Shown in pieces: positions 38,278-57,400 of a stretch of 64,000 bases of DNA (the first letter of the stretch is position 1; every line of letters begins with the position of its first letter). The position numbers and the translations under genes were made by a program. Location of the stretch: positions 140,001-204,000 of the forward strand of contig CAUYUJ010022404.1 in the NCBI GenBank assembly GCA_963575745.1, in the 5' to 3' direction. The notes beneath the pieces are model-generated. The model was not told the DNA's origin, did no database searches, and was given only the letters and a program-made list of their open reading frames with translations. Origin of the DNA: Prorocentrum cordatum. Taxonomy: Eukaryota > Sar > Dinophyceae > Prorocentrales > Prorocentraceae.

Positions 38278-40554
38278 CTAGGGGTCCGAGTAGCCAGCCA
38301 CCAGGTGGGCGTAGCGCACCGCAACGAGCTTCTGCTTGATGGTCCCCTCAGTCCTCCCAACGACCCGCGCGGGGAGGACGGCGAAGTTGATGAGCGCCTC
38401 CTCGTCGGCCAGGCGCTCCTCGCGGTCGCGTCCTGGGAGCCAAGGGCGGAGCCCCTGTGCCTGGCGCACGGCTACCCAGAGCCGCCATCCCCCCTCGTAG
38501 CCCGCTCTCGTGCCTTCGCTGAGTTTTTGCAGCATGGCCTCCATCTTCTGCTGCGCGAACCAACTGGCGTAGTTGGCCCCGCCTGGCTCAGCGCGGCCAG
38601 CGGGGGCGAGCTCCTTCCCGGGGTAGTTGCTCTTCCGCGCGATGCCCAGCGCCTGTGGCTTCACCAGATTGGTCGCTGGCATCTCCTTGGCACGTCGGGG
38701 GCTCTTCTTACGTGGGCTCTTCGAGCGGGTCACACGCTTGTCCAGCTTGACCTCCTCTGCGGCTGGAGCCTCGCGAGGTCCGATGAGAGTGTCCTCGTCG
38801 ATCGCCCGGAAGCGGACTGCCTGGGCACGCCGACGATTCTTGTGCATCTCATCAGTGAGCGCCCCTCCCGCCCTTGCCTCGTCCTCCGCCGCCAGCACGA
38901 GCGCGGGCCGATCCGGTGCCTGTGCCCAGGCGCGGAACCAGCGCTTGGTAGCGTCCCACGCAGCCTGCTCCTCTGGATCATGGCATACTCCGGCGCGCTG
39001 CGTGCTGGCACTGCCGGGTGCCTCCGCCACCGCGGCCAGCACCGCCTCGGCGGTCCTCGGCGGGAGAGCTCTGGCCGCGCCCTTCAGGAGCTCGTCCTCC
39101 GTGGAGCCCTGAGCCCGCAGGTGGGCCCACTCGTCGTTGGTCCCTCCCTGCACCCGCCAAACCTCCTGGGGCGTCAAGGCACGGACCGTGCCTCTGCCTC
39201 CCCCGGTGACTCGGAGGAGCGTCGCACCGGGTCCTTGGGGTCCTGTCCCCGGCCAGCGGATGGTGCCTACAGGTCCTTCCTCACTGTAGATCAGGTGCTT
39301 CACTCCATCCTTTTTGAGATGCCCGACTGGCTTGAGGAGGAGGGGGTCGCTGGTGGACTGGATGCGGGGGTCCCACGACACTTCGCCTTGCTGGTCGAGC
39401 CAAAGGTGGTCCCTCCCCTTGTCCAAGAGTGGCTTGAAGCCGGCAGCTCGCGAGCAGGCCGGCGGCATATTAATGCACGCCAGGCCCGCCCCCGCTTTCC
39501 GACGCCCGCCCGTGAGCACCTGCCTGGTCCGCGTGGTGGCATCGCCGTGGTGCGTGCAGACCACCTCAAACTTCGAGACCACGTAGCCCAGCTGCTTGAG
39601 CGCCTTCTCGAACCTGGCCGTGTCCACTCCGTTCGGGGCGTCCACGATTACCACTTCAGGGCCTTCACTAGTCGCTGCAACGAGGAACGCCTCCATCTCC
39701 CTGCCCTTGGGGTCCAGAGACAGCGACGCCATGAGCCATTCTGCTTTCTGGTTCTCCTCGGGTTCTGATCCACCGAGGCGCTTGAGGGCCTTCACATAAG
39801 GGTTGAGGAGGCTCCCCACTTCTCTACCCAACTTCCTGTGGAGCGGGAGAGGTTTTGGCGGCCCATGCCCCCGCTGGAGTGCTCGGTTTCGAAGGGCGGC
39901 CTCGGCCACTGGGCCCGTCTCCCCTGGAAGACGAAGAAGGCGCTCCTTGGCGCCCTCCAGGATCTGGCCCCAGGCCGCGGGGGGCTCGAGGCGCTTCCAG
40001 CCCGCAGTAGCCAGCGTGTCGTGAACCTTCTTGACCTCCTCGCGGGTAAGCCAATCGGCCACCTCGTTGTGGTAGGTCCTGCGGCACCCGTGCATAGCTT
40101 CGATCCTCTCCACTAAGCGGATCAGGTGGCGCGCGAGGGTGTTCTTAGGGCTTCTTTTGGTGAGCCACGCCTTCACGTTCTGATTGTCGGTGACGTAGAA
40201 CACCAGCTCACCCTCCCACTTCGGGCCCTGCTTCGTGGCCAGCGCGACCACTGCCAACAGCTCGACCACCGCGATGATCCAGTCCTCCTCGCTGCTCTCA
40301 CCTCCGACCGCCTGGCTCAGGGCCTCGAGCAGAGGCCCGGCGTCCGCGGCCATGTACTCCGGCGTGGGCGTGGCTCCCCCTGCAGTTGCGCTCCCCCAGT
40401 CGATGGCGCCAATTGAGGAGGTGGTGGCGTCGCCCCCGGTCCACCTCGTGGTGCGTGCTGTTCCCGGCAACGCAAGGCGTTCACGTACTGAGAGCGCCTG
40501 CGTGAAGCTGGCCTGGAAGGTCGTGCTCCAAGGTTTGGGGACGTCGAAGAGCAT
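38278..40554 (-). CDS. RNase H, C5-methyltransferase-like C-terminus, recombinase N-terminus
   Basis: A 758-codon frame, part of the retroelement polyprotein. RNase H lies at about 40430-40030: an Asp near AIDWGS, Glu in ELLAV, Asp in VTDNQNV, and Asp in HNEVADWLTRE. At about 39680-39000 there is a segment resembling C5-cytosine methyltransferase motifs VIII-X: GDATTRTRQVLTGG (usually Q-x-R-x-R), LTPQEVWRVQG (usually the RE-x-x-RLQGFP region) and ALPPRTAEAVLAAV (usually GNAVPP..A.A). The SAM-binding and catalytic Pro-Cys motifs are not visible before it, so this half alone should not methylate DNA. The last part (about 38620-38281) is the N-terminal domain of a tyrosine recombinase (GTIKQKLVAVRYAHLVAGY). 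Cytosine methyltransferases inside dinoflagellate retrotransposons have been described. Confidence 0.75.
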   Translation of the reverse strand: MLFDVPKPWSTTFQASFTQALSVRERLALPGTARTTRWTGGDATTSSIGAIDWGSATAGGATPTPEYMAADAGPLLEALSQAVGGESSEEDWIIAVVELLAVVALATKQGPKWEGELVFYVTDNQNVKAWLTKRSPKNTLARHLIRLVERIEAMHGCRRTYHNEVADWLTREEVKKVHDTLATAGWKRLEPPAAWGQILEGAKERLLRLPGETGPVAEAALRNRALQRGHGPPKPLPLHRKLGREVGSLLNPYVKALKRLGGSEPEENQKAEWLMASLSLDPKGREMEAFLVAATSEGPEVVIVDAPNGVDTARFEKALKQLGYVVSKFEVVCTHHGDATTRTRQVLTGGRRKAGAGLACINMPPACSRAAGFKPLLDKGRDHLWLDQQGEVSWDPRIQSTSDPLLLKPVGHLKKDGVKHLIYSEEGPVGTIRWPGTGPQGPGATLLRVTGGGRGTVRALTPQEVWRVQGGTNDEWAHLRAQGSTEDELLKGAARALPPRTAEAVLAAVAEAPGSASTQRAGVCHDPEEQAAWDATKRWFRAWAQAPDRPALVLAAEDEARAGGALTDEMHKNRRRAQAVRFRAIDEDTLIGPREAPAAEEVKLDKRVTRSKSPRKKSPRRAKEMPATNLVKPQALGIARKSNYPGKELAPAGRAEPGGANYASWFAQQKMEAMLQKLSEGTRAGYEGGWRLWVAVRQAQGLRPWLPGRDREERLADEEALINFAVLPARVVGRTEGTIKQKLVAVRYAHLVAGYSDP

Positions 40555-42460: not shown

Positions 42461-42462
42461 CA
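42461..42462. other. Left copy of CA target-site duplication
   Basis: CA just outside the left terminal inverted repeat, matched by CA at 52802-52803. Counting one CA copy as part of the insertion makes insert plus duplication 10,341 bp, a multiple of three, and restores the retroelement frame. Confidence 0.7.
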
Positions 42463-42489
42463 CTGGCGTAGCGACTTTGGGTTAGAAAA
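42463..42489 (+). repeat. Left terminal inverted repeat
   Basis: Begins CTGGCGTAGCGACTT, identical to the inverted right end for 15 bases and matching at 24 of 27 overall (mismatches at positions 16, 19 and 24). Confidence 0.9.
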
Positions 42490-42760
42490 CTTGAAGCTGG
42501 CCAGCTTTGGTTACAGCATGGTGTAAGTTGATACATAGCTAAGGTCATCTGAAGAACTAACATGCAACTACCCAACTTGATGTTAGCATAGATGGTTGCA
42601 TTGTTTACCACTTGTAATTGCAGCTGCCCAAGTTACCCAGGGATGTGACTATCGTAACTGCGAGTTGTAAGTTGCAGGCCAAAGAACTTATCAAAGTTAC
42701 AAATAACTTGTAAACTACTTGCAACTGTCTGAAATAAGTTAAATTTGGGCTCCTTTGCAA
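42490..42760. repeat. Left AT-rich subterminal zone
   Basis: About 270 bp that are markedly AT-richer than their surroundings, with recurring AAGTT, AACTTG, AGTTGCA and GCAACT words in both orientations (for example at 42522, 42563, 42574, 42669, 42689 and 42714). Reiterated subterminal words of this kind bind transposase in several DNA transposon groups. That function here is inferred. Confidence 0.6.
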
Positions 42761-42898
42761 CCCTCGAATTGTACATATCGCACATTATCATTCCCCTCTC
42801 CCCCCTCCTCCCCCGCGTACCCCCATCCCCCCGACGCCGCGTGGCTGCTGAGGCTTCGGATCGCAGACCGAAGAAAGAGGCGGATTGCGAGGGGGATG

Positions 42899-43001
42899 AG
42901 CGATTCAATCGCTGCAGGATCGCAGACCGAAGAAAGATGCGGAGTGGAGGAGGATGAGCGATTCAATCGCTAATGTTTTTTTGATGAGCGATTCAATCGC
43001 T
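42899..43001. repeat. Palindrome cluster 1 (3 copies), 3' of gene A
   Basis: Copies of AGCGATTCAATCGCT at 42899-42913, 42957-42971 and 42987-43001, all identical. The first two follow a 21-bp duplicated block (GGATCGCAGACCGAAGAAAG, at about 42858 and 42917). A run of seven T (seven A on the gene strand) lies at about 42976-42982 between copies 2 and 3. The gene A stop is 25 bp away. Confidence 0.95.
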
Positions 43002-43025
43002 GTCCTGGCAGATGTTGTTTTCCGC

Positions 43026-45226
43026 TCAGTGCAAAGCAAGAATGTCGCCAGAGGCGAGCTCCGACCAAGCGTGGCACATCTCAACCGATTCGCCGCTCCA
43101 CCACGCAAGAAGCAATTCGCCGTCCTTCCGCAGGACTGACGCGTTCGGCGTCCGCTTCTCGATCACGACGCACTCGTGCCCAAGAATGAATAGATCGTCC
43201 CCCCGTTGGCCCAGAGCTGCGACGCATAGAAAATTGTTCTGCATGCGCACCACGTCGCCTGCCCAAACAAGCAAGCCTTTGAAAGCAGCGCTGGATGAAA
43301 GGACGACGTCGCCGCCGACTGCTTCAGCCAGCAGGGGCGACAACTCCGCATCGCCCCCCCTGAGCCCTGGGCGCTCGTCGAAACTTTCGAGCTCCTGCAG
43401 GCGCGCCAACAGCACGCGAGAAATTGCAGCTTTCTCGAAGCCTTTCAGTATATCTTGGTTGTCCAGAATCATTTTCGGCAGAAGGTGCGACCTCTCAACA
43501 ACGAAGCAATCCAACACAACGTCGAATTTCTCCACTTGCTCGGGAATGTGCGTCGCCAAATGAAACTTTGGTTTCCAATTGTCGGCCCCGTATGCTTTTT
43601 CATGTGCGTCCGCGTGGCGATCAACTGCAGCTCCGAGGGCCGAGGCATCGATGTCGCCCGCCTTCGCCCGTTGAATTTTGTCAATTACAGCGAAACAATG
43701 GCAGAGGGAGGCAACTTCGTCGCGCAGCTCATCGAAATTCGGCAAGATAACAATGCAAGCAAAATGCCGCACCAGCGGGTAAATGCACAACAACTCTGAG
43801 GCGCTGCTTCGCCAATGCTCCTTGGATGCGTTCTCCCTGGCCTTGCAGAAAACAACGTGGGCCTCCCGACACTTGCGTCGGTGTTGCTGGGGGAAAGACC
43901 AGTCTGCCTGGCAGTGCCGTTCCAACTTCGGATAGATGTCCCTCAGAGCAGGAATGGCTTGGCATGCCGACATGAAGCAAAACATTTCCTGGGACGCAAC
44001 ACCATTGCACAAATATACATGCATCCAATCAAAATGGAGCGACGAAACAGGGCCGACCTGCCCTCGGAGGTCTGCGTCCGCCAACAACCCATCAGGATTA
44101 AAATTGATGCCGTGTGCTTTCTCGTGGCGCACAAATGCGGCTTTCGATATTGTCCCTTGTAAGTGCGTCAACTCGTCGTGGGCTCCCCATACGGCCTCGT
44201 CAGAATTACAAATGAATGCGCTGCGGTCCCTGCATGTGATTTCCACCAACCGATTGGGCGCGGCGCCAGCGCCAGCAATGCCTGAGCCTTTCTTGAGCAC
44301 GTTGGCGCACTTCAGACACGGTCGGATCCCTGCAGATCCTTTCACGCCGAGGCCCCTGGACAAAGCGACCTCGTCTCCCAAGTGTACGGCAAATTTCGCG
44401 AAGAACATTGTCGGCCCGCCCTGTAGCGGCAAGGCCACGCCATCCACGAGATTGCCGTCCTCAAGAAGCAAGCGACGCAGCAACGACTTGATCGTGCCCG
44501 AGAGGCCACCGCGAATTTTCTCCACTTGTGCCGACCTGATCACGCCCAGGGGGAACCAACAGCAATCGTGCCGAAGGGCATGCTTGAATTCTAGAAACGA
44601 AATGTAAAATGCAACGAACTTCCTGCGGTTATGCGGTCGCAGCACAGCTCCAGGCGTGACCTCGTCGTGCGCAAGGATCACGTTCCACGGCCTTGCTGGG
44701 GTGATAGGCGCGGCCGCGAACATGCGCTTCAGCGCTGGGGACACCTCGACTAACCGTTGAACCAAGCGGGCAGGCCTCAGCGGGATGCGCCAAGCAGGCG
44801 CGCCGCGAACCCCCTGCACCACCCCCTCCCGCCCTGGGGGGGGGGGGGGGAAGGGGGAAGGGGGGAATGGGTGGAGGGGGGGAAGGGGCAGGGGGAGAGG
44901 AGAAAACTGGCACCAGAAAAAAATCCAGATGCCGTTGTTGATTTTTTGCGGCCCAAGAAAGACGCGCTGCTTGGTGCGCCCCGCGACGTCCTTGCAATGT
45001 GCCACTCAAAGGACCCGCCGTCGCACAGCGGCAATTCCAGAGAACACGACATCTCTCTATCGTACTCCATCTTCGCGGCGGCCTTGGCCTCATGCGCAGA
45101 GACCTCCTCTTCGATGGGCGCTTGCCTCAGTCGGCGGAGGACCTCGCACAAACCAGCGCACGTCACGCCTGGAATGGTCACCAGCCTCCCAAGGCGGCGG
45201 CGCTTCTCGAGAACTTGCTTACCCAT
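43026..45226 (-). CDS. Gene A: transposase-like protein, 706 aa, one intron
   Basis: Exon 1 runs from ATG 45226 to 44914. An 80-nt GT..AG intron (44913-44834) has a long pyrimidine tract. Exon 2 runs 44833-43026. Lengths sum to a multiple of three and the phase fits, giving 706 residues without a stop. Landmarks: HDEVTPG at about 160, C-L-K-C at about 277, DWMH at about 373, KPKFHLATH at about 525 and VVERSH at about 550. The last pattern (PK-x-H...H, then ER-x-H) recalls the C-terminal part of CACTA-type transposases, and the whole belongs to a family common in dinoflagellates but without an accepted function. As the largest, best-conserved gene of the inserted element, it is the best candidate for its transposase, acting on terminal or palindromic repeats in the nucleus. 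Catalytic DDE residues cannot be assigned by eye. Confidence 0.7.
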
Positions 45227-45319
45227 GATGGCCACGCGGGCGCTGGGGCGCGGGACTCGGGCACTCCTGAGCCCAAGCGCTGAATGTAAAGCAGGTGAAG
45301 GGTGCAAGCCGTCGCGCCG

Positions 45320-45334
45320 AGCGATTCAATCGCT
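45320..45334. repeat. Palindrome copy 4, 5' of gene A
   Basis: A single AGCGATTCAATCGCT, identical to the three copies 3' of gene A, lying 94 bp upstream of the gene A start codon. Gene A is thus bracketed by identical palindromes. Confidence 0.95.
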
Positions 45335-45357
45335 TCCGAGAGAGGGCGCCGCTTCAT

Positions 45358-45540
45358 AGCGAGTGAATCGCTAACGAAATGAGCGATTGAATCGCTAACG
45401 AAATCAGCGAGTGAATCGCTAACGAAATGAGCGATTGAATCGCTAACGAAATGAGCGATTGAATCGCTAACGAAATCAGCGAGTGAATCGCTAACGAAAT
45501 GAGCGATTGAATCGCTAACGAAATGAGCGAGTGAATCGCT
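45358..45540. repeat. Palindrome array (8 copies, exact 24-bp period), between genes A and B
   Basis: Eight copies start at 45358, 45382, 45406, 45430, 45454, 45478, 45502 and 45526. The centre alternates between AGCGAGTGAATCGCT (copies 1, 3, 6, 8) and AGCGATTGAATCGCT (copies 2, 4, 5, 7). The 9-bp spacers read AACGAAATG or AACGAAATC. Just beyond, at about 45555-45561, lies T7 (A7 on the gene strand), 97 bp after the gene B stop. The Ser-Leu-Ile frame across the array is a repeat product. Confidence 0.97.
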
Positions 45541-45657
45541 AACGGAATGAATGATTTTTTTCTCCGACGCCGCATCTCAGCCCGAGAGATGTCAAGAGGC
45601 GGTCACTCGCGCAGCATGCTCGTTGCTGCACTTCCCCTCTCCTCCCGCAGGGGAGCC

Positions 45658-47280
45658 TCAGTCGTCGAAAGTGCTGAGCGCTGTCTCCGCCTGCGCGCAC
45701 TTCTTCTCAGCCGCGTCTGCCTTCTCCTTCACCGTCGCAAGCTGAATGGACAGCACGGCGTTCTTGGACAGGGTATCCTGGGCCGCGGCCGCGAGAGCGT
45801 CGAGGTCCTTGATGTGCCACGCCAGGGCCTTGCTGTGGTCCTTGTGCAGCTTGCTTGCCTTGGGGTTGTTCAACAACCCTTTTGCCTTGAAAGCGAGCGG
45901 GCTCACCTTGGCCAGGATCTTGACGGCGTCGCTCATCATCTTCTTGGTGGCTGAGGTTGGCGCGAGTTGCTCCTTTCCCTTGCCTTTGCCTTTGTTCTTG
46001 CCTTGGTGCTGCTGCGGGCTGGCGGTGCGCTCCTTTGCGGCGGTCAGGGACTGGCGGACCTCTTCCTCGACGCTTTTGTCGTCCTTGTAATCAATGTTCA
46101 CGCAGTAGAGCGTGCCGAGGACATCATCTTGTTTCTTGTCTTTGCACAGCCTCTTAATCCTCTTTGCGGAGTAGCCCTTCTTCTTGTAGACGCTGAGTGG
46201 GAGGTATTTCCCCTGCCTGCCTGAGGCGCGGCTCTCGCGGTATACCCTCGTGAACGTTTCCACCGCAATCTTCTCGACCTCTGCCTTCCCGTTCGCCTCC
46301 TTGACGTCGTTCCAAAAAGTATCTTTCTCTTCCTGTGAAAGCGACTTGAAGGATTGTGGCGGCCATCCTCCGAAAATCCTGTGGAGCTGAGTGTGCCGCG
46401 AACTGCGCGTTGAGCACTGCCAAACATTCCTTTTCTTGCCTACAATCCTTGCTGCGAGCGGCTCCACGGGCTTCTTGCACTTGGTGCAAACGGGGTTGCG
46501 ATCGAAGCGCGGCACCGCGTCGATAGCCGTCTGATCAGGGGCAGCGGCGCACGGTGGCTGGACCTCGGCGGGTTCTGTCGGGACCTCCGAGCTCCTCGGC
46601 GCGGCCGGTTTCTTGCGTTTCTTTTTGGCGGTCTTGGAGCGCTTCCCCTTGTTATTCCCCTTCTTCTTTTTCTTGGCCTTCTCGCCGTCCTCGCCGCTGA
46701 CGCCGTAGTCGGCGCCCTCGGCGCCGTCGTCTCCGCCAGTCCCGGCCTCGTCTGCGTCGGCGCCGTCGCCGTCGGCGTCGGCTGGCCAGCCTTCGGCGCC
46801 TTCGGAGGCCCTCCTCTTCTTGCCCCCCTTCTTCTCCTCAACTGCGGGCGCAGCCGCGCCGCCGCGGTCGCCTCCTTCGTCAAGGTGTTCGGGTTCGGGC
46901 CCCCACTCCCAGGACCAGTCGTCCTCCTCGGGCGCAAGGCCTGCCGCTGCCTTGGCTGCCCTGACCCTGGCCTTCTTGGGAGGGCGCTTGGCCTTGCCTG
47001 CGCGGCTGGCGCCGTGAGCGGCCACTTCGGCGGCGTCCTCTGGGGCCATCCCTAGCTCTTCGGCAAGTGTCACTGGCTCTCCCTCGGGGGTTTCCTCTGG
47101 CTCCTCGGGGGGGTCCTGTTTGACGTCGTCTAGCTGCCCCGCGCGGGCCGCCGAAGCCACGACGGAGAACTCGAACAGCGAGCGCTGCTTCTTGACCTCC
47201 ACGCGCTTGGGCGGGGCGGAGACGCGCGGCGGGGCGGCGGCCGACATCTGCTGCAGCAGGCACGCCGCAGGCTCGTCCAT
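45658..47280 (-). CDS. Gene B: basic/acidic protein with Cys motif, 540 aa
   Basis: The start at 47280 (ATG, frame open further upstream without a better ATG) gives 540 residues and one clean stop. The N-terminal half is disordered: acidic and Ala/Gly-rich with Lys-rich blocks (KKKKKGNNKGKRSK, KKKRKKP) that could be nuclear localisation signals. A globular part follows, with C-T-K-C at about 265-268, W-Q-C at about 287-289, FGGWPP at about 303-308 and TFW at about 321-323. This small zinc-finger-like module is one I associate with many unannotated dinoflagellate proteins. The C-terminus (about residues 440-540) is Lys/Ala-rich and helical, likely coiled coil. DNA or RNA binding is inferred. 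It is bracketed by palindrome arrays at 45358-45540 and 47391-47489. Confidence 0.65.
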   Translation of the reverse strand: MDEPAACLLQQMSAAAPPRVSAPPKRVEVKKQRSLFEFSVVASAARAGQLDDVKQDPPEEPEETPEGEPVTLAEELGMAPEDAAEVAAHGASRAGKAKRPPKKARVRAAKAAAGLAPEEDDWSWEWGPEPEHLDEGGDRGGAAAPAVEEKKGGKKRRASEGAEGWPADADGDGADADEAGTGGDDGAEGADYGVSGEDGEKAKKKKKGNNKGKRSKTAKKKRKKPAAPRSSEVPTEPAEVQPPCAAAPDQTAIDAVPRFDRNPVCTKCKKPVEPLAARIVGKKRNVWQCSTRSSRHTQLHRIFGGWPPQSFKSLSQEEKDTFWNDVKEANGKAEVEKIAVETFTRVYRESRASGRQGKYLPLSVYKKKGYSAKRIKRLCKDKKQDDVLGTLYCVNIDYKDDKSVEEEVRQSLTAAKERTASPQQHQGKNKGKGKGKEQLAPTSATKKMMSDAVKILAKVSPLAFKAKGLLNNPKASKLHKDHSKALAWHIKDLDALAAAAQDTLSKNAVLSIQLATVKEKADAAEKKCAQAETALSTFDD

Positions 47281-47390
47281 ACCTCGGTTGCGCGAGCGCT
47301 CCCGAGCGACCCGAGAGCAGGAAGCGCTGCTTTGAGCCCAGAGTGGCTGCAGCAAGGCGCAGTGGGGTCGTGAGCTCGGGAGCGCGTCTG

Positions 47391-47489
47391 AGCGAGTGAA
47401 TCGCTTGTCTGAGCGAGTGAATCGCTTGTCTGAGCGAGTGTATCGCTAGTCTGAGCGAGTGAATCGCTTGTCTGAGCGAGTGTATCGCT
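47391..47489. repeat. Palindrome array (5 copies, 21-bp period), 5' of gene B
   Basis: Copies start at 47391, 47412, 47433, 47454 and 47475 and read AGCGAGTGAATCGCT or AGCGAGTGTATCGCT, separated by TGTCTG or AGTCTG. The period is 21 bp, against 24 bp in the array at 45358, and the centres are a different mix, so each array has been homogenised locally. Confidence 0.95.
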
Positions 47490-47587
47490 AACCTCAGCAA
47501 GCGAAACAAGGTCTCAGCGATCCTCGCTCTCTCGCCCCCCCCGCCCCCATCCAAACAGAAAAGCGCAAACCACGGATGGCGACGTCA

Positions 47588-47775
47588 CGTTGGACCACCG
47601 TTGGACCACCCACGTTGGACCCCCGTTGGACCACCGTTGGACCACGGTGGTCCAACGCGTTGGACCCCTGTTGGACCACCGTTGGACCACCGTTGGACCA
47701 CCGTTGGACCACGTTGGACCACCTTCTGTTGGACCACCCACGTTGGACCACCGTTGGACCACCGTTGGACCACCA
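47588..47775. repeat. GTTGGACCACC tandem array with internal inversion
   Basis: About 15 copies of the 11-mer GTTGGACCACC and short variants. At about 47635-47655 the motif meets its reverse complement (GTTGGACCACGGTGGTCCAAC), a perfect 21-bp palindrome. The array lies between genes B and C inside the transposon. Short frames of this repeat (Trp/Ser/Asn or Pro/Leu/Asp) are not genes. Confidence 0.9.
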
Positions 47776-48047
47776 ATCGCCGTAGGGCTTGGAGGGTGGG
47801 TGGGCATGCGGCATCCGAAACCACACCAGAAACGAGCGTCAAAATTGTAACGAATATTGACGCTCCCTCTCGGGCCTTGTCCTTTTCTCTCTGATCTGTC
47901 CTTCTCGGTTTTTCTCCTCCTTCTCCTCCTCCTACTCTTCTTCATCCTCATCCTCTCTCAACCCTCCTCTTTACTTTCTCCTCCCCCCCCCTCCTCCTCT
48001 CCCCTCTCATCTTGGCGGGTCGCGCATGGGCGGGCTGAAGAGGAGCC
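47776..48047. other. C/T-rich spacer between genes B and C
   Basis: Mixed sequence passing into a CTC/TCC-rich tract (about 47900-48008). On the gene strand this is GGA-rich. No gene seen. Confidence 0.5.
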
Positions 48048-48101
48048 AGCGATTCGATCGCTCAAATGGGGTTTCGAGGAAGAGCCAGCGATTCGATCGC
48101 T
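48048..48101. repeat. Palindrome cluster (2 copies), 3' of gene C
   Basis: AGCGATTCGATCGCT at 48048-48062 and 48087-48101, inside a duplicated 39-bp unit containing GAGCCAGCGATTCGATCGCT. This centre variant occurs nowhere else in the element. Confidence 0.95.
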
Positions 48102-48197
48102 CAAGTTGGGTCACGAGGGTGCTATTATTTGTTCAAAGAATCGGCGGGCTCCCGAGACAGGCCGAGCGCAGGGCAGCAGGCCGCGTCTTGGAGTGGC

Positions 48198-48743
48198 TCA
48201 GCCCACGTGGCGCATGCAGATGCTCTCGAGCGTCTTCTTGGCGCCCGAGATCGCAGCAGCGCTGTCCTCGAACGCCTTCGCTGCGCTGCGTGCGATGGTC
48301 GCGGCGTGCTCCGTCGCAGTCAGAGACCTGTCAAGGCAATCCATGACCTGCTGCAGCTCGCCCTTGCGCACCGTGATGTCCCGCGTCACCACTGTCTTCG
48401 ACTTGTACTGGCCGACTGGTCCTGAAGACCGCTGTTGAACGGCCCGCCCTGGCTGCGGTTCCACGGATGGCGCGGGGCGCTTCTTGCTCTTCTGCGTGCC
48501 CAGCTCGTAGACAATGAACGCGTCATTGTCTGCCTCCTGCAACGCCGCCTCCCACTCGAGGGCGTTGTCCTCGTTGTGGTAGGTAGAACACCACAAGTGG
48601 TTCGCCACCTTTTCCTTCACGATGTCCCTGTCAGGGTCCGAGAAGATGCACGAGCCAGCTTTCTTGCAATCGCCGCGAGGGCAAAAGCCGCGCCACAGCC
48701 ATTCACTCCCGCTGGAACTCGCGGCCTCCGACGGCCCATCCAT
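48198..48743 (-). CDS. Gene C: small Cys/His protein, 181 aa
   Basis: ATG 48743 starts MDGPSEAASS. The frame is open further upstream but that part is Arg/Pro/Ser-rich. Residues 17-56 hold C21, C26, C32, H49, C52 and H56 in the pattern RGFCPRGDCKKAGSC...ANHLWCSTYH, which could bind zinc and is a module that I recall from many small dinoflagellate proteins. The middle is basic (KSKKRPAP). The last 70 residues form an Ala-rich amphipathic helix with TVRKGELQQVMDCLDRSL. A DNA-binding or adaptor role is possible. Function unknown. Palindromes flank it at 48048-48101 and 48853-48868. Confidence 0.6.
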   Translation of the reverse strand: MDGPSEAASSSGSEWLWRGFCPRGDCKKAGSCIFSDPDRDIVKEKVANHLWCSTYHNEDNALEWEAALQEADNDAFIVYELGTQKSKKRPAPSVEPQPGRAVQQRSSGPVGQYKSKTVVTRDITVRKGELQQVMDCLDRSLTATEHAATIARSAAKAFEDSAAAISGAKKTLESICMRHVG

Positions 48744-48852
48744 CGCTGCCCGCCGAGCGCGCCTTGGCCCTTGGCCGCTGAGAAAGAAAACCGTTCTAAA
48801 CAGATTGAGCCCAGACGAATGCAGATGACTACTCGCGCGGCCCGCCCCATGG

Positions 48853-48868
48853 AGCGAATGCAATCGCT
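48853..48868. repeat. Palindrome copy (16-bp variant), 5' of gene C
   Basis: AGCGAATGCAATCGCT, the only copy with a 6-nt centre. It lies 110 bp upstream of the gene C start. Confidence 0.85.
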
Positions 48869-48967
48869 GAGAGGAAATGCAACGGGCAGGGGTGCAAGGA
48901 TGCCGACGCATCGAATGGGGGCTGAGCGAGGAGGTCGAGCAAGCCGAGGCGACCGAAGGGGGGAGAG

Positions 48968-49265
48968 AACGGCCCGCCGCATCTGGGGCACTTCTTTGCG
49001 CCAGTAACTTCCCACGAGGGGCTCGCCAAATCTGGGGGCCTTCATTGCGTCAATAACATCCCACGAAGGGACCGCCAAATCTGGGACCCATTTTTGGCGT
49101 CAGTAAATTCCTAAAGGGCCCGCCCAAAAACTGAGACCAGAGATTTTGGCCTGGGTCGCTGCGGAGATTTTGACCTACGAACGGCGCCCGTGGCGTGGAT
49201 CGCCGCGGAGATTTTGGCCTGGATCGCGGCGGAGGGCGGCGTGGGGATTTTGGCCTGGATCGCGA
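48968..49265. repeat. Two short tandem repeats in the C-D spacer
   Basis: A unit of about 53 bp containing CGCCAAATCTGGG and GCGTCARTAA is repeated three times (about 48976-49125), followed by an 18-bp word GATTTTGGCCTGGATCGC repeated about five times in variable spacing (about 49143-49262). Neither is seen elsewhere in the window. Confidence 0.75.
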
Positions 49266-49303
49266 CGAAGAGAGGAGAGATAGACGAGAGAGGTGACCTG
49301 CAT

Positions 49304-49353
49304 AGCGATTCAATCGCTTGTGAACTGCATAGCGAGTCAATCGCTGTTTTTTT
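49304..49353. repeat. Palindrome pair and A7 tract touching the gene D stop
   Basis: AGCGATTCAATCGCT at 49304-49318 and AGCGAGTCAATCGCT at 49331-49345, then T7 at 49347-49353. On the gene strand the order is stop codon, one G, seven A, one C, palindrome. Gene D therefore has no 3' untranslated region between its stop codon and an A tract. Confidence 0.95.
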
Positions 49354-49354
49354 C

Positions 49355-50092
49355 TCAAATGTCCTCGAGGTCATGAGGGTCCCAGGCGGCCTGCGCCCGC
49401 GGCGCCCGCGTGCCTTCGGGGGCGCTGCCCTTGCTGCCCTTGCCGTCCTTGCCGCCCTTGCTGCGCTCGGAGAAGGCGCCGCCCTTGCTCTGCTCCTGGC
49501 CTTTGCCGCTCCTGGAAGAGGCGCCCTTGCCGCCGCCCATGCCCTTGTAGTCCGAAGGCCGTTTCGGCGCGTGGCCTGCTTGCCAGCCCCAGCCGCCGTA
49601 GCCGTACTTCTCCTCGAAGAACTCCTTGGACGTGCCACCGCGTTTCTTCCAACGCCGCTCGCCTTCTGACCATCTGTTGCCGCGCCACATCGTCGGCCCC
49701 CCCTCGCTTGGAGGAGGCGGGCCGCGCATGGCCCATGGCACGGCGAACTGCTTTGCCATGTCCTCCTCGTCCTTGAGAGCCTGCGGGGTGTTCCACAGGA
49801 AGGTCATCCTCGCTTGCTTGCGCCTCGGGTTCTCCGCGTCGCCGTCGCTGTCGGGCTCGCCCTTGCCGCTGGCGCGCCACCCGCCCTTGCAGCCTTTGCC
49901 CTTGTCGGCGGCGCTCCGCCCCTCGGACTCTGAGTCTGAGATGGGACTCATGCGGGGCTCTGAGTTTGAGGTTGGATTCATGCGCGATTCGTTGCCAGCG
50001 CCCCCGCTCTCCTGGGCCCCATCCTGGAACTGCGCAAAGGGGTCGCCCAAAGACAGCAACGATTGCAGTGGCCTCTCCGCGTCGTCGGCCAT
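49355..50092 (-). CDS. Gene D: Gly/Ser/Lys-rich protein, 245 aa
   Basis: ATG 50092 starts MADDAERPLQSL. The frame is open upstream, where it runs through two palindromes, so the later ATG is preferred. The N-terminal part is acidic and Ser-rich; the centre has a Trp/aromatic block (FLWNTPQALKDEEDMAKQ, WAMRGPPPP, MWRGNRWSEGERRWKK, YGYGGWGWQ). The C-terminal third is Gly/Ser/Lys-rich, resembling RNA-binding RGG-like tails. No named domain is recognised. The stop codon is one base from an A7 tract and the palindrome pair at 49304-49345. Confidence 0.55.
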   Translation of the reverse strand: MADDAERPLQSLLSLGDPFAQFQDGAQESGGAGNESRMNPTSNSEPRMSPISDSESEGRSAADKGKGCKGGWRASGKGEPDSDGDAENPRRKQARMTFLWNTPQALKDEEDMAKQFAVPWAMRGPPPPSEGGPTMWRGNRWSEGERRWKKRGGTSKEFFEEKYGYGGWGWQAGHAPKRPSDYKGMGGGKGASSRSGKGQEQSKGGAFSERSKGGKDGKGSKGSAPEGTRAPRAQAAWDPHDLEDI

Positions 50093-50182
50093 TGTCGCTG
50101 GCGCGGCCGCCGAGGCCTTGAGCCGAGGCCTTGAGCCGAAATGGCAATGCGAAGGCGCGGTCGCAGGGGCGCTCCGCGAGCA

Positions 50183-50263
50183 AGCGAATGCATCGCTGAC
50201 GCAGGGTTGAGGTGAAGGGAGCGCTGCTTCGATGGGAGGTCGGAGGAAAGCGAATGCATCGCT
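50183..50263. repeat. Palindrome pair (66-bp period), 5' of gene D
   Basis: Two identical copies of AGCGAATGCATCGCT at 50183-50197 and 50249-50263, inside a 66-bp direct duplication that includes GACGCAGGGTTG. This centre (ATGCA) makes the full 15-mer nearly perfectly palindromic. Confidence 0.95.
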
Positions 50264-50440
50264 GACGCAGGGTTGGGGGTTGGCTTGAGGGGTCGAGGCC
50301 TCATCCATAACTCTCCCCTCTCACCCTCCTCTCTTCCCTCTCCCCTCTCACCCCTCTCACCCCTCTCACCCCTCCTACCCCTCTCCAAGTCAGCGGTCCA
50401 TCACTCTCCCCTCTCACCCCTCTCACCCTGTCTATCCCCA

Positions 50441-50491
50441 AGCGAATGAATCGCTTAGCGAGTGGATCGCTGTTTTTTTTTTTTTTTTTTT
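50441..50491. repeat. Palindrome pair and A19 tract, 3' of gene E
   Basis: AGCGAATGAATCGCT at 50441-50455 and AGCGAGTGGATCGCT at 50457-50471, one base apart, then G and 19 T (19 A on the gene strand) at 50473-50491. The tract ends 282 bp downstream of the gene E stop. A CTC/ACCCCT-rich stretch (about 50310-50435) lies on the other side. Confidence 0.95.
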
Positions 50492-50773
50492 GTCATCGCA
50501 GGCAACGGTAAGGCACGCCCTCACAAGAGTAAAAGTGAGCGGCAGGGTTCCCTGGGGCGCTCGCGCGGCTTACCCAAACGCTAGGATGCGCTCTCCAGGG
50601 CCCCATATACAGAAGCGCGGTAGCGAAATGCATTGGACGCTCTGTCCGAAACACCGTAGCATGACTATGAGCGCGCGGCGTGTGGCACGGCTCAGGCCGA
50701 AATACATCTGGCAAAGTGCGTGGCGGACCCAGCGCGGCCGAGAGCGCCTCAGGAAACCTACACACATTATGAG

Positions 50774-52224
50774 CTACTTACCCAGCAGCTTTGAAATCCT
50801 GAGCCGCTCTTTGCAACTCGAGCACCCCTTTTTGGCGTAACGACACTTCGAACACCCGAGCTTCTTGATGGGCTTGAACAGGGGTGACACGGTGACGCCC
50901 TTCCCGTGGCCTTCGCCCGTCGTCTTAGCCCCAGCCTTCGTCGCCTTTGCTTTCGCCTTCCCCTTTGCCTTCCCCTTTGCCTTCGGCTTCGGCCCCCCCC
51001 CTTCTCCTTGGCCACGAGTCCGTGCAGGATGTCCTCGGTGACCGAGGCGACGTCCTCCTTCTTGGGGGGAGTCACGTTCTTTTTGGCGACGCTGGCTGCT
51101 GCAGGCGTCCCTGGCGACGGTGGCGTTGGCGCTGCTGGCGACGGTGCCCCTTCTGAGGCGGAAGATGGAAGAGAACTCGGGGCAGCGTCCTCCACGGCTG
51201 CGAACGCCGAGGCCGCGGCACGTTTCGCGCCGCCTCCCAGGATCTTGAGGTTCAAAGGGCCCGTCTGAGCGCCGACGTCCGCCCGCCGCAAGTTATCGAA
51301 CATGAGCTGCATCATCTGCAAAACGTCGGGCTGCGACGCCGAGGCGCTCATCATCTGCGCCCCCGTGGCCTGCTGCTTTGTGTTGCGGCATGGGTACGTA
51401 GCCTGGACGGAGCGAATCGCGGCTTCTGGCGCGGGGCATGCAGCTGGCAACTCGTCGCCATACACTTGCTTGAAGAAGCCAGGGTGGTCCTCGCAGAACG
51501 TCGAGGGGGGCGTAGGCAGCTCGGTCAGCCGAACGGGGGGCGCAGGAAGCCTCGAAACCTTCGTGGGTGAAATTGCGGCCAGGGGAAACTGCCTCCTCCT
51601 CCTCCTCCCCCTCCTCCTCCTCCTCCCCCACCCTCCCTTCTCCTAGGTCCCCCTCCCCTCGACGAGGGCCGCAATTTCAGCTGCAGCCTGGCGCTTGAAC
51701 ACGCGCTTGGTCTGCTGGAGGTACGAGTACTTTGCAGCCCACGCCAAATTCTTCGCGGTCTCGGCTCCGTCCACGGCCATGCGCCACATCGCCGTCAACA
51801 TCTGATACGTGCCTTCGGTCGGGTTGCGAAGACCTAAGCTAATCGCAACATCAACCAGCACGTTGAGCTTCGCTTCCTCGGGCACGTCGGTCCGCGCCAA
51901 CTGGTGCCACGAGCCCGCTGTCAGGTACCCGAAGATGCACTCATAATCCTGCTGAGCCATTCGCAAACCCACGGCGCTGCCAGAAGCCACGATGCTGCCG
52001 AGCTTCTCCAACAGCCTCCCCTTGGAAACCTCGGACCAGGGTTGCGCTGCGACGAGAGACGAGAGGGTTGTCACCTGCGTGGGCTGCAGCCTCGCGCTCC
52101 CGAAAGCCTGCACGAGCATCCTTTCCTGCGCGGCCGCCACCGTATCGAAACAGGGCTGCCCTTGCACTGCCTCGAGCAATCGCCCGACGGCCTCGACTTG
52201 GTCGCGCAAGCGCTGGGCAGCCAT
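50774..52224 (-). CDS. Gene E: helical protein with C-terminal Cys knuckle, about 458 aa
   Basis: ATG 52224 starts MAAQRLRDQVEAVG. Exon 1 (52224-51664) is followed by a purine-rich GT..AG intron (51663-51589, 75 nt, inferred from the TAG in exon 1's frame and the conserved-looking continuation) and exon 2 (51588-50774). The N-terminal 187 residues are helical (CIFGYLTAGSWHQLARTDVP, LGLRNPTEGTYQMLTAMWRM), a family that I recall as abundant in dinoflagellates. The middle is Ala/Pro-rich; the end is basic with GCSKCRYAKKGCSSC, a C-x2-C-x6-C-x2-C knuckle that could bind zinc and nucleic acid. Exon 2 needs a one-base shift at a nine-G run (50994-51002) to reach this knuckle; without it the frame ends in an Arg-rich tail at 50767. 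An assembly indel is likely. Confidence 0.6.
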
Positions 52225-52325
52225 GGCTATGCGGCCCCACCCACCCAAAAAAAAACGCGCGGGCTTGCGTATGCAAACGGCTTCGAATGATGGCGCAGTG
52301 GGGGCGGCATGGGCAGGGGCCTCAT

Positions 52326-52521
52326 AGCGAATTCATCGCTTATAGCGAATTGATCGCTCAGATAATTGCACAGCGAATTGATCGCTCAGAGAACCACATA
52401 GCGAATTCATCGCTTATAGCGAATTGATCGCTCAGATAATTGCACAGCGAATTGATCGCTCAGAGAACCACATAGCGAATTTATCGCTCATACCCAGGAA
52501 TGCGTTAGCGAATGCATCGCT
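52326..52521. repeat. Palindrome cluster (8 copies), 5' of gene E
   Basis: Copies at 52326, 52344, 52372, 52400, 52418, 52446, 52474 and 52507 (starts, each 15 bp). Six have AATTC or AATTG centres and lie in a 74-bp duplicated block (52326 to about 52399, and 52400 to about 52473); the last two read AGCGAATTTATCGCT and AGCGAATGCATCGCT. They occupy 102-297 bp upstream of the gene E start. Confidence 0.97.
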
Positions 52522-52607
52522 GTCCTCCTCCTTCCCCCCTCCTTTCTTCTCGCCGTCCTACTGGCTCACTACCGAACCACAGGGGGGGAGGGGAGGGGAG
52601 GGGCATG

Positions 52608-52774
52608 GAAATTGAAGAAGTTATGAAAGTTATGAAAGTTATAAGATGGTTATATGTCGATTATAAATTGTTGTGTAAGTATGGTTAGGGACACCGTGTA
52701 AGTATAGTTGCGGCTTCGGTAAGTACATTTGCATCTGAGACAGCTACTTCTATAAGTGTGATAAGGCACTCTAC
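52608..52774. repeat. Right AT-rich subterminal zone
   Basis: AT-richer than the interior, with GAAAGTTATGAAAGTTATAA and repeated GTAAGTA words (at about 52674, 52698 and 52720) plus AGTTGC at 52706. The AAGTT/AGTTGC vocabulary is shared with the left subterminal zone. Confidence 0.6.
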
Positions 52775-52801
52775 TTTGCTAAACCGAAGTCGCTACGCCA
52801 G
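52775..52801 (-). repeat. Right terminal inverted repeat
   Basis: Read on the minus strand it begins CTGGCGTAGCGACTT, identical to the left end for 15 bases and matching at 24 of 27. Confidence 0.9.
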
Positions 52802-52803
52802 CA
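52802..52803. other. Right copy of CA target-site duplication
   Basis: CA directly outside the right terminal inverted repeat, matching 42461-42462. The retroelement sequence resumes at 52804 with GGGGAGCTCC. Confidence 0.7.
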
Positions 52804-54450
52804 GGGGAGCTCCGGAACGGCTCTTCCCTACTTTGCCTGGCTGCTTCTGCTTGCCCAGGCCAGAGGCTCAGGGGGTCTGGGTCCTCTGGGATGGGTGGGG
52901 CTGGTCCCGCCCTTGTCCTCGCGTGCGGCTCCTCCACTGCCTCGCTCTCCGAGCTCTCGACGGGGTCCGCGTCGTCGCTCGGGGGTTCTTCCTCTGCCTT
53001 CTCGTGCACGATCCTCTGGCGCTTCTTCGCAGGGATATCGTCCAGCTCTCCTGCTTTCACCATCTTGCGGGTTAGCCTTTCAAGGATGTCGACGTACTCG
53101 CCCGCTATCTCGCCCTGCTCCTCGTAGGGGGTGCCAGTCCAGCTTCGCGGTAGGTCCTCAAACATGGAGCTGATGCCCTCGATCAGGAGTTCGCGGGCCT
53201 TCCTCCTCCGATCTGGCCCTGTGGGATCGTTGGCCGGGACCCCGAGATGCACTCTGCTTCGTGGCACTTGTTCTCCCCGTCCAGGATGGCCGATGGCAGG
53301 GGGGTCTCGTCTTCCCAGGCTGAGTCGAGCGGGGTGGCCGCGCTCTGTCCGCGGGGGGCTCAAAACTGGCCCGGCGGGGATGCCTGGCTTGCGTCTGCTC
53401 CTCCTCACGCTTGCCGGCATCCCTCGCACGACGGGCCCGGCGGCGTTCCTTTGCTTCTGCCAGCTGCATCTGCAGCTCCCTGATGCGTTTCTCTTCCTCC
53501 TCCAGGACGCCCACCTCTGCAGCTTTGGCGGCCTCGAGCTTCCTCCTTATGCTCTCCAGCTTTATGCTGTCGGCTGAGCTGCCGCCGCTGCTGGATCCTC
53601 CGGCGGGGGCCTCGCGGCTCTGCCTCTGGAGGGCCTGGGCAGCGGCCAGCTGGAAACGCTTTCCCCCGGGGGGCGGCGGGGGGGCCCGCCTGTTCCAGGC
53701 GACGCCAAGCTCCGGGCTGCCGAAACCCTGGGAGCTGGCTCGGTCCGCGATCCTCAGCGTGACGCTGCGGTGGGAAGCAGGAGTGGCTTCATTCTGATGC
53801 CGCGGCGCCTCCTCGCGCTCCTCGTCCACAGTTCTCTTGGCCCAGCGCGGCGCCCAGGTCGCCCAGTTCTCAATCTCCTCTCGCCCGATCCAAAGGATGA
53901 GGCGCTCCCCAGGTTCGACTTGATCTTCGTCTTCCAGAGGTGGTCCTTCTGCCCCCGCGGTGTCCCCTTCTTCGGTGTAGGCGAACAAGCGAAGCTCCTC
54001 GGGGCTGAGGACGTCGTCGCGCTGCCACCTGCAGGTCATGAGGACGCCCTGGAGTTCGTGGGTATACATGGGGGCCCCGGGGATCGGTATCCACCGGTCC
54101 CCTCGCTGCGGGAGGAGCACCTTATGACCGGCTCGTCGGCTTGCTGCTCGGCCTGCCTTGACTTCTTGACCCTCCTGGGTGGTTCCTTCTCCTCCTCTTC
54201 CTCCTCTTCTTCTCCTTCGTCTCCCCCAGGTTCGTCGCCTCCACCGTCTCCTCCAGGGCCTGGTGGCGGTGCTCCTCGGTCGGGGTCTCTCTTCCTCGCT
54301 TTGTTGCGTTTCCACCCTCCTCTCTTCTTGTCCCTGTTCGCGCACTGCCATCCCTTGGGCCCTGCTGGGTAGTCCTCCTCCGCCTCTTTCTCCATGACTG
54401 GCACGTCCTGGAGGCGAAAAAGAGGGGGGGGTCCGCCAGGTGACCCCTGT
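52804..54450 (-). CDS. Retroelement linker: acidic, coiled-coil region
   Basis: Continues the retroelement polyprotein upstream of the insertion, spread over three frames. From about 54420 to 54110 it is highly charged (EEEEEEEKEPPRRVKKSRQ). A globular stretch follows (about 54095-53840) with MYTHELQGVLMTCRW and LILWIGREEIENWATWAP. Then comes a Glu/Ala/Arg coiled coil (about 53560-53400) and a last segment (about 53210-52950) with SMFEDLPRSWTGTPYEE and DILERLTRKMVKAGELDD. No enzyme is recognised; a nucleocapsid or linker role before the reverse transcriptase is possible. The frame ending here is the one rejoined with 41247-42460 when the transposon is removed. Confidence 0.5.
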
Positions 54451-57400
54451 CGCCCGCCTCCGCCGCCATCTTGTCCCCAGCCCGCGTCGTGACGATGGGC
54501 TCGAGCTTCTTCAGGAGCTTCGCGGGGGGGGCCCCCGCCCCCGCGGCCTTGACGACTTCGGCCCAAGCAGCGCGCAGCTTCGTCGGGTACTGGCCGGCGT
54601 AGCGTGTGCGTCGACGTCCGCGTTGACCGACCTGGAAGCCAAGGGTGCTCAACTCCTCCCGGAGGGCCTTGGCCAAAGAGGGGGCCCCGCTGGGGACGCG
54701 TCCTCCACCCTGCAGATGTGGGGGGGGCCAGTGCGAGATCTTGGCCACGAAGTTGTTGGCCTGGTCGCGCCCGTAGTAGAGAGCCATAGTGCCCTCCGGG
54801 AGTTCCTCGAAGGCTTTCCTTGTGCGTGGCTCGACGCGGCTCCAGTGGAAGTTCGCGGGCCCCAGCTTGCCAACGAGGTCGTTCAGAGGGCGCAGCAGCT
54901 CGGGCCCGAGCTGCGGGGTCTCCAGGGCTTTGGCGCCAACGGCGAGACCTTGGGCATGCGCGCCCGCGAGGGCCAGCCGATTGGTCAGGCTCAGGATGTC
55001 CCAGGTGCTCAGAAGGGCTGAGGGCGGGCCCGGAGGAGTTGTAGTGGTCGATCTGGGTCTGGGTCAGGTCGTAGGGGAGAGGCCCCTCCAGGGCGACGTG
55101 CTCGTGCTGATTGGTGCAGCGCCTCGCCAGGGAAAGCGCCCAGGGGTAGAGACCTTTTGAGACCATCCAGAACGTCAGCTTGCGGTGCCGCTTCGCGGGC
55201 TCCTCCGGGGGCCCGAGTCCCCATTCGCACATGACGACGGATATGATTCTGGCCCCTGTGCGCTTCTGCAGCTGCTTGATCCTGGCCCGGTCCCAGATCT
55301 TCGGGTAGCGCCCGTCGCTGGCCGTGTTCTCGAGCATCCACTCCCGATCGTTGGCGTCGAGGCGCTCGCAGAGGTCGGCGGCGAAGTCTGTCATGATGTT
55401 GCTCTCGATCTCCGCCTGGACGGTCCCGTCGCGGTCTGGGTGCTCGAACGTGCGAGTCCCGCCATTCTTGAGGCACCAAGCCGAGTGGGTCGTACACGGT
55501 GGGGCCAGCTGGTAGACATTCGCCTCATCGGGCCCTGGTGCGCCTCCAGCATCGAGAAGGAGCCGTTCTCGCACCTGTGGGTCGAGGATGTCATGCTCGT
55601 CCTGTGGCCCGGCCTGGGCCAAGGGGTCCTTGAAGTACTCGGCGGGCGGGGCTGTCTGGAGCCCAGCGTCTCGCATCGTCTTCGTCCAGTCCCCAGTGCC
55701 CGCGAAGATCTCGCGGGTGCGAATGCCCCGCGCGAAGGCCGGCCTGCGCAGGAGGGGCGCGAGGCCGGAGAAGTCCTCCTCCTCGGGCTCCTGGTTCCCG
55801 ACGGCGCCTTCACGTGTTGGGAGCTGCGCCTGTTGCATGCGCTTGCAGTGCATGCAGGGAGGTGGCCGGCTGGGTATCACAGGCCCCGCAACCTCCTCCG
55901 ATTCCAGGTGCAGCTCCCAGCCTACCGTGAGCAGCTCCCGGACGGGCTTCCCAGCGAGTGTCCAGGTCTTGAGGATCTCCCCAAAGGCCCGGCCCCGCAG
56001 GTTGGATCCTTGGCTGGCGATGGTCGGCGGCCGGAGGACCCTCATGTGGCCGCGGTGGATCATGACATTGACCTCCTTCTCGCTGGTCTGCGTCGGCAGG
56101 ACGGAGTCTATCTCGAGGTGGTTCCAGTGGTTGGTCCTCCAGACCCTGACGGTGGTCTTGTTGAGGGCGCTCGGTGGGAAAACCGCGATGCACCTGAAGT
56201 CCTTGTCGTGGTGCGGGTGTTGGACGTCGTGGCAGTGCATCCTGAGCTCGGCTTCGCGCGGTGAGACGAAAGGAGGTGCGCTTCCCAGCGCGGCGGAGGC
56301 AGTAGTAGCACCGTCCCAGAGCTCTCGGCGGAGCTGAGCAGCCAGGGCCTTGACGGCCGGCGCGTCAGGCTCCTTGTCCTCCCACAGCAAGGCTGCCGCG
56401 ATGTGGAGAACCAAACGCTGCCTGAGCTCTGCGTCCCCCTCCTTGAGACCAAGTCGGGTGCGCATCTCTTCATCGGGGTGGAGCTCGTCCTGGAAGTCGA
56501 GGTAGTCCCACTCCTGGTCCTGCACTGTGAGCTTCCCACGCCCCACCCCAGCATCTTCGTCCCAGGTGGCGCCTCCGATGCTGAGGTCCTGCGTGCTGCT
56601 CCTCCCGGCCTTCGACCCGATTTTGTCGAGGGCTCGTCCTGCTTCCTCGGCGAGCGTTGGCCCCCCGTCACGGGTGGCCTCCAACAGGATCTCCTCCAGG
56701 CTCAGGGAGCTGCCCTCGGAGCTGGCGCGCGCGAGCCTGGCCAGGACGCGGGAGTGCAGGTAGTCGCCGATGTCGCCCAGGGTCGCGAGGGTCCCGTCTT
56801 CCAGGATCTTCTCGATGATGTTCCATCTCTCGAGGGCGGCTGGATGCGTCGTTTCGCCGGTGCCCTCCACCGCGGGCGCGTGAGCATGGGCGTCCAATAG
56901 GCAGTCTTCCTCAGGGCCCTGAACCGCCTGTCTGAGCTCCTCCTCGAGGGCGGTGGTCTGGATATCGTCGAAGGCGGCGGGGGGGGACCAGACAGCCGGC
57001 GAGCCTCCCGCTCGGCTGCCTCCTGAGGCTGCCCCGGGCGCCTCCCCGGCGCTCCCGCCAGCCCTCTTGCTGTCCGCTTCGGCCTTGGCCTGGGCTCGGA
57101 GCTGGGCTACCCGCCCGTCGACCGAAGCGGGATCAACCTTGGCTCCCGACTTCAGGCCGCCGCGCCTGATGAGCTGCGCCTGCGCAGTCCAGTCGAGGCT
57201 GCCGAGCCCCTTGATGGCCTCGTGGGAGTGAGCGCAGGTTCCCGCCGCCTTGGGGCAGCCAGCCCAGGTACAGGCATCCCAGCAAATGACTTTCCCGTTC
57301 TTGTCACGGGGGGCGTGCTTGACGGAGCGTCCGGTCTCGCTGGAGGTCAGCGCCTTGCCCGCTGGGTAGGCTCGAGCGGCGGGCCGCTTCTTAGCCGCAG

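Follow-up and report, generated by a model that had tools for sequence, protein, structure and literature searches.

A palindrome at the gene boundaries of a multigene DNA transposon in Prorocentrum cordatum: a candidate transcript-boundary signal

Introduction

Nematode SL2 trans-splicing, which involves an intercistronic stem-loop plus the Ur element, is among the closest described systems to the one presented here: a short palindrome found at every gene end of a DNA transposon, in a 64-kb stretch of the genome of the dinoflagellate Prorocentrum cordatum (contig CAUYUJ010022404.1, positions 140,001 to 204,000; hereafter the window). With regard to the transposon itself, Transib elements in the narrow sense are known for 5-bp target duplications, and 2-bp target duplications are linked to the CMC (CACTA, Mirage, Chapaev) transposons. 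Dinoflagellates, according to the sections consulted of one study, lack the usual poly(A) signal, and the separation of their messages is poorly known; in Amphidinium, Karlodinium, and Lingulodinium, poly(A) sites are marked in the genome by AAAAG/C and, in Amphidinium, an excised spacer between the poly(A) site and the next acceptor separates messages (PMC2488372).

The palindrome, AGCGA-N5-TCGCT, was initially noticed in the letters of the window alone (the original prediction), with recombination sites, transposase-binding sites, or transcript-boundary signals offered as possible roles. The analysis reported here suggests that it may well mark transcript boundaries, as an oriented signal private to a single family of multigene transposons.

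Position and orientation of the palindromes

The window contains 33 exact AGCGA-N5-TCGCT sites, all within positions 42899-52521, as compared to a mean of 0.14 expected by chance (100 shuffles). A copy with a 6-nt centre at 48853 raises the total to 34, the number originally counted, and a short copy with a 3-nt centre is present at 47516; N5 copies with one mismatched arm letter are absent from the window. All these sites lie in an insert carrying five genes, G1 to G5, on the minus strand. As anticipated, the rest of the window contains no palindrome and the cluster sizes are 3, 1, 8, 5, 2, 1, 2, 2, 2, and 8. None is present in 200 kb of the same contig either. The clusters, located by pattern scan, are as follows:

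42899..43001, minus strand: three palindromes, 3' of G1
45320..45540, minus strand: one plus eight palindromes between G2 and G1, the eight forming a 24-bp tandem array
47391..47489, minus strand: five palindromes, 5' of G2, in a 21-bp array
48048..48101, minus strand: two palindromes, 3' of G3
48853..48868, minus strand: the single palindrome with a 6-nt centre, 5' of G3; the identical 16-mer is at the same place in a decayed relative (see below)
49304..49345, minus strand: two palindromes, 3' of G4, directly after GAGAAAAAAAC
50183..50263, minus strand: two palindromes, 5' of G4
50441..50471, minus strand: two palindromes, 3' of G5, immediately preceded by a 19-nt A-run and a C; this stretch contains the 31-mer anchor used for counting
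52326..52521, minus strand: eight palindromes, 5' of G5

In agreement with the original prediction, all 10 gene ends carry a palindrome and none of the 34 copies lies inside the gene models, which span 63% of the insert. This holds for the genes as modelled, since longer open frames of G3 (from the ATG at 48911) and G4 (from the ATG at 50308) would take in copies. The start codons chosen for G1, G2, and G3 are backed by homologues (P0001, P0018, and, by equal length, P0026, respectively), and that of G4 by a spliced-leader-like motif alone. Several clusters are tandem arrays (periods of 24, 21, and 74 bp), and the 34 copies therefore correspond to about 10-12 unrelated flank contexts, as judged by eye. 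An Rfam scan of the insert gave five weak matches, none at the gathering score and none overlapping a palindrome.

The arms were said to be invariant and the centre to vary. The former is true throughout the window; the centre, by contrast, is not free, as it reads T-N-V-A-H on the gene strand in 33/33 N5 copies, with its first T and fourth A (T1 and A4) fixed in all of them. The palindrome therefore has a direction, and all N5 copies point with the genes. An exception to this form is a site with a CTCGC centre in another copy of the transposon. Similarly, the claim that copies within a cluster share centres holds for the clusters starting at 42899, 48048, and 50183, but the others are mixed. 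RNA folding, applied to five of the 12 N5 forms, gave energies of -4.4 to -5.3 kcal/mol, with z-scores of -3.3 to -5.2.

Position relative to the genes is also narrowly defined on the 5' side, where the palindrome nearest to the ATG lies at 93, 110, 109, 90, and 101 nt for G1 to G5, respectively. The probability of a range of 20 nt or less is 4.5e-5 under a crude random-placement null, and the distances are the same in three other copies of the transposon, bar one value of 122 for G5. From the stop codon to the first 3' palindrome, the distances are 24, 117, 96, 9, and 302 nt for G1 to G5. An A-run followed by a C touches the 3' palindrome in G4 and G5, and the A-run of G2 lies 14 nt before its palindrome. 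Altogether, the insert has five gene-strand A-runs of at least 6 nt, four of which end no more than 14 nt from a palindrome; for comparison, 12.7% of intergenic positions have a palindrome within 17 nt.

Downstream of the 5' palindromes, two motifs resemble the spliced leader, the sequence used for scoring being the dinoflagellate leader (background windows have a 99th percentile of 18, and the highest score, 34, is that of a site near position 2700):

50130..50145, minus strand: spliced-leader-like GCCATTTCGGCTCAAG before G4, matching the leader at 15 of 16 positions; score 28
47332..47348, minus strand: weaker spliced-leader-like AGCCACTCTGGGCTCAA before G2; score 20

In G1 to G4, the distance from the palindrome to the start of GGCTCA is 46, 52, 41, and 45 nt, respectively, and AG acceptors, preceded by 65-80% pyrimidines, are found 40-83 nt past the palindrome. 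When the Amphidinium scheme is applied, most of the palindromes would be located within the spacer that is excised, each message being framed by them. Elsewhere in the window, a near-full spliced-leader relic, GCGTAGCCATTTGGGCTCAAAG, is present at 2700-2722 (plus strand), with no palindrome of the AGCGA family nearby.

Distribution in the genome and in a decayed relative

Patterns were counted in the 4.13-Gb assembly, where counts of repeats are lower bounds. The single palindrome pattern has 4631 places, versus 3178 for its reversed control, and this excess of 1453 is no more than 49 copies of the transposon with 30-33 sites each would supply. Oriented pairs of palindromes are far more specific, with 1182 places versus 0 for the reversed control. 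The element-specific 31-mer anchor, at the 3' end of G5, has 49 matches genome-wide and, given the 25, 24, 20, and 21 pairs per copy read (both strands summed), about 1103 of the 1182 pairs, i.e., about 93%, would be accounted for by 49 whole copies, as an estimate rather than an assignment and with about 79 pairs beyond it. On this basis, the signal looks private to the element. The pair matches listed, a fraction of the total, fall on six contigs, each of which also holds the anchor. Among the 50 single-site matches listed, three fit a T-N-N-A-N centre on one strand (about six expected by chance); none of these three places was a cluster when fetched, nor were four further short loci. In prokaryotes, the paired pattern has three matches, taken as chance, and in viruses none. 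A host-wide gene-boundary signal is rejected on these single, pair, and anchor counts, and the scan that the original prediction had called for thus gave no sign of a spread unrelated to these genes.

A comparison of gene order between copies had been called for as well. The three other copies read contain 34, 32, and at least 31 sites, again with a palindrome at every gene end and none within genes, and the order of genes and clusters is the same in 4/4 copies. More broadly, a degenerate pattern finds G1 at 46 places in the genome; at 40 of these, the anchor is on the same contig and strand, 34 times at a spacing of 6.3-6.6 kb and four more times within 5-8 kb, and at the other six no anchor is found on the contig. 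Two anchors are at other distances from G1, 33.0 kb (G000:C15069) and 3.7 kb (C21843), perhaps owing to a nested insertion and a deletion. Divergence between recent copies is about 0.4-2%, and the ratio of nonsynonymous to synonymous differences between them (pN/pS) is 0.66-1.02, so that they are uninformative on protein function and cannot show constraint. T1 and A4 letters changed among copies in 2 of 208 cases.

An older view is provided by the G2 pattern, one of whose 40 places in the genome, at C16264, is clearly divergent. This decayed relative (7.5 kb) has main blocks that are 68-82% identical to the element, in the same order G5, G4, G3, G2, G1, and a coding identity of 3555/4580 mapped columns (about 78%); its G2 and G3 start codons are GTG, and the gap between G2 and G1 is mostly missing. 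Near-palindromes, defined as having up to two arm mismatches, are present at a similar distance at six of the seven gene ends that it can show, the seventh, the 3' end of G2, having none. On the 5' side, they are found at 91 nt for G4, 102 nt for G3, and 119 nt for G2 (window: 90, 109, and 110 nt); on the 3' side, at 11 nt for G4, 136 nt for G3, and 311 nt for G5 (window: 9, 96, and 302 nt), the site after G4 being weak (two mismatches and no T1). Spacings within clusters are also kept in the relative, at 21 bp for the G2 array and 16 bp for the G5 pair. In total, it has 14 such sites where about four are expected by chance, and not every weak near-palindrome need therefore be real.

A possible mechanism

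Taken together, the direction of the palindromes, their position outside the inferred messages, their near-privacy, and their age point to a message-end signal read in RNA. Of the three roles originally offered, transcript boundary is the best fit, given the 5' distances and the A-tracts of G4 and G5; action as RNA, coupling to poly(A) addition and trans-splicing, and the existence of a reader protein are what we infer. In a transcript of the gene strand, the palindrome would fold into a 5-bp stem (6 bp in some copies) with a UNVAH loop, and this hairpin would be located in the RNA removed between neighbouring messages. On one side of it would be the 3' end of a gene, with AAAAC-type poly(A) sites adjoining the palindrome in two genes; on the other, at a distance of about 40-50 nt in four of five genes, would be the leader-like GGCTCA of the gene that follows. 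Since host DNA hardly uses the motif, the reader would most likely be encoded by the element, perhaps by the Cys-bearing G2, G3, or G5, and would secure processing of the element's own messages in any transcription unit where it had landed. It is tempting, if more speculative, to imagine a transposon with its own message-punctuation code, in which a hairpin unused by the host and an element factor direct poly(A) addition and spliced-leader joining, yielding separate messages from any host transcript.

Several observations weigh against the palindrome being such an RNA signal. Strong arm conservation between recent copies, suggested by an earlier count, was discarded because that count was biased, the window copy having defined the sites; in a leave-one-out count, arm letters changed among copies in 2 of 1045 cases, versus 69 of 10,917 for intergenic letters (p 0.09). 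With respect to the decayed relative, 59/70 arm letters are kept, compared to 494/634 other intergenic letters, with no clear excess. No stem-preserving change is seen among the four recent copies, and the one double change, AGCAA..TTGCT in the decayed relative, could be two CpG transitions. DNA folding is nearly as good as RNA folding (-3.8 to -4.5). Moreover, an A-run is missing before the 3' palindromes of G3 and, in G1, lies between palindromes. No leader-like motif precedes G5, and G1 and G3 have GGCTCA only. Finally, the first and last genes have copies on their outward sides as well, and a boundary signal would therefore not be limited to positions between genes.

Alternative explanations

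The main rival of an RNA boundary signal is an oriented DNA regulatory site, i.e., a promoter-proximal, insulator, or methylation-sensitive site bound by a DNA-binding protein of the element or by the host silencing machinery. This is a possibility to be taken seriously, even though we consider it rather unlikely. Repeated binding motifs in a transposon have a precedent in maize Spm, and a perfect dyad with invariant arms, each holding a CpG, together with the site arrays, the narrow distance to starts, and the similar folding of DNA, would suit such sites. However, a symmetric dimer site does not need the T1/A4 asymmetry, nor would it be expected to have a single orientation in 33/33 copies, and copies also lie directly after 3' ends.

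Alternatively, the palindromes could be passive, the genes having entered as processed messages and palindromic repeats having grown in the gaps between them. The leader-like relic before G4, the A-tracts at 3' ends, the other simple repeats in the gaps, and the lack of significant arm conservation between copies are in line with such retroposition footprints, and retroposition is described as common in dinoflagellates in the parts consulted of PMC11453091. Yet the roughly 10-12 flank contexts, which look unrelated, have the arms and the oriented centre in common, and the positions of the palindromes are retained in the old relative, which makes this scenario improbable.

Recombination sites through which gene cassettes move or are swapped, in the manner of integron attC, are far less probable still. 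Potential hairpins, all oriented, do flank every gene, and the tandem arrays and the differences in array length between copies show that local recombination occurs. Nonetheless, gene order is constant, as seen in the identical order of genes and clusters in the four copies, in the 5-8 kb, same-strand spacing of G1 and anchor at 38/46 G1 places, and in the order of all five genes in the relative despite its divergence; in addition, no recombinase was recognised by Pfam, and the three single matches fetched elsewhere are not clusters. Cassette swapping is rejected as the main reading, and an integron-like cassette array disfavoured, on account of this constancy. Lastly, binding of the transposase at the ends is disfavoured because the outer 436 and 280 bp of the element, which are AT-richer than the rest, hold no palindrome.

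The transposon and its genes

Inverted repeats, 2-bp target duplications, and the fold of G1 indicate that the insert is a DNA transposon of RAG1/Transib/CMC breadth carrying five genes. Both its ends are inverted repeats, CTGGCGTAGCGACTT:

42463..52801, genes on the minus strand: DNA transposon, 10,339 bp, defined by inverted repeats, 2-bp target duplications, and the 49 anchor matches
42463..42477, no strand: terminal inverted repeat, gene-strand 3' end; duplicated target CA at 42461-42462
52787..52801, no strand: terminal inverted repeat, gene-strand 5' end; duplicated target CA at 52802-52803

These ends are shared by the three other copies, whose flanks differ; in one of these copies, the 3' repeat has a single change. 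Target duplications are 2 bp in 4/4 copies inspected (TG, TA, TG, and CA), rather than the 5 bp of Transib in the narrow sense, and membership of that group is rejected accordingly. A protein of the insert is 100% identical to a P. cordatum protein over 89% of the query. The genes, those of G4 and G5 being modelled from open reading frames (ORFs) and by eye, are:

43026..45226, minus strand: G1, transposase with a RAG1/Transib-like fold and a C-terminal BAH-like domain; one intron at about 44769-45009, borders by eye
45658..47280, minus strand: G2, protein with a conserved Cys-rich part; eight proteins found
48198..48743, minus strand: G3, 181-aa protein with Cys and His near its start; P0026 is 97% identical and 181 aa long
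49355..50092, minus strand: G4, low-complexity protein, ORF with a start inferred from the spliced-leader-like motif upstream
50774..52224, minus strand: G5, at least two exons by eye, from ORFs 51643-52248 and 50767-51465, with a change of frame at a G-run at about 51003-51010

The predicted structure of G1 is confidently folded (predicted local distance difference test, pLDDT, 83.6) and is that of a DDE transposase of RAG1/Transib type, matching RAG1 and Transib transposases along most of its length, with the BAH-like domain at the C-terminus. By sequence, no named transposase family was recognised: a Pfam scan of 17 homologues gave nothing better than E 0.02, none of it a transposase, and a search of PDB sequences with G1 gave no match. 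With a BAH-like domain behind a RAG1-like core, as modelled, G1 could be a chromatin-reading transposase. Its intron may use a GA donor, as relatives, P0002 among them, retain, by eye, residues that the annotated P0001 drops.

G2 is 85% identical to P. cordatum P0018 over the region searched and 77% over all, with an identical start; its other homologues are six proteins and a distant one labelled Skav, presumably Symbiodinium kawagutii. Besides P0026, the protein search with G3 returned one partial match, P0027, whose entry bears the label Pyramimonas sp. (81% over 65% of the query). No Pfam family, including any recombinase or integrase, was found for six ORFs of the element, and most of its cargo has no assigned family. 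Between G3 and G2, an 11-bp minisatellite (CGTTGGACCAC) occupies 47588-47774, and similar repeats are present in the decayed relative. Outside the transposon, long open frames at 38278-40554 and 54036-57572 (minus strand) flank it in the same direction as its genes and look retroelement-like by eye.

Comparison with known systems

In the titles and abstract openings of the literature surveyed, palindromes are mentioned neither for the gene boundaries of dinoflagellates nor for transposons of Prorocentrum; one of the papers listed, PMC7789003, uses "palindromic" once. The string "palindrom" has no use in the parts consulted of PMC10666404 and PMC11453091. With its dozens of copies, a transposon whose signal is repeated, nearly private, and locked in position offers a compact system in which to test how messages are bounded in dinoflagellates and, if the proposed reading is true, would be an example of a mobile element that carries an expression grammar of its own.

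Among transposons, Transib/RAG1-like and CMC elements share with this one the RAG1/Transib-type transposase model, the inverted repeats, and the 2-bp target duplication; it differs by its five genes, the palindromes at every gene edge, and the BAH-like C-terminus. The subterminal TnpA motifs of maize Spm/En are likewise short motifs repeated inside a DNA transposon, whereas here the motif is at gene boundaries and absent from the outer 436 and 280 bp. Integron attC sites are also oriented, folded sites between genes, but in the present case no integrase is recognised, gene order is fixed, and there are several sites per boundary. Nematode SL2 operons, with their intercistronic stem-loop and Ur element, are similar in having a short hairpin between genes, from poly(A) site to trans-splice site; the present signal differs in being private to one transposon, present in many copies, and also found outside the first and last genes. 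As for the dinoflagellate intergenic regions with AAAAG/C, the text consulted of PMC2488372 does not contain the words hairpin, palindrom, or inverted repeat; the order of features is the same as that proposed for this transposon: stop codon, A-rich site, excised spacer, acceptor, and start codon.

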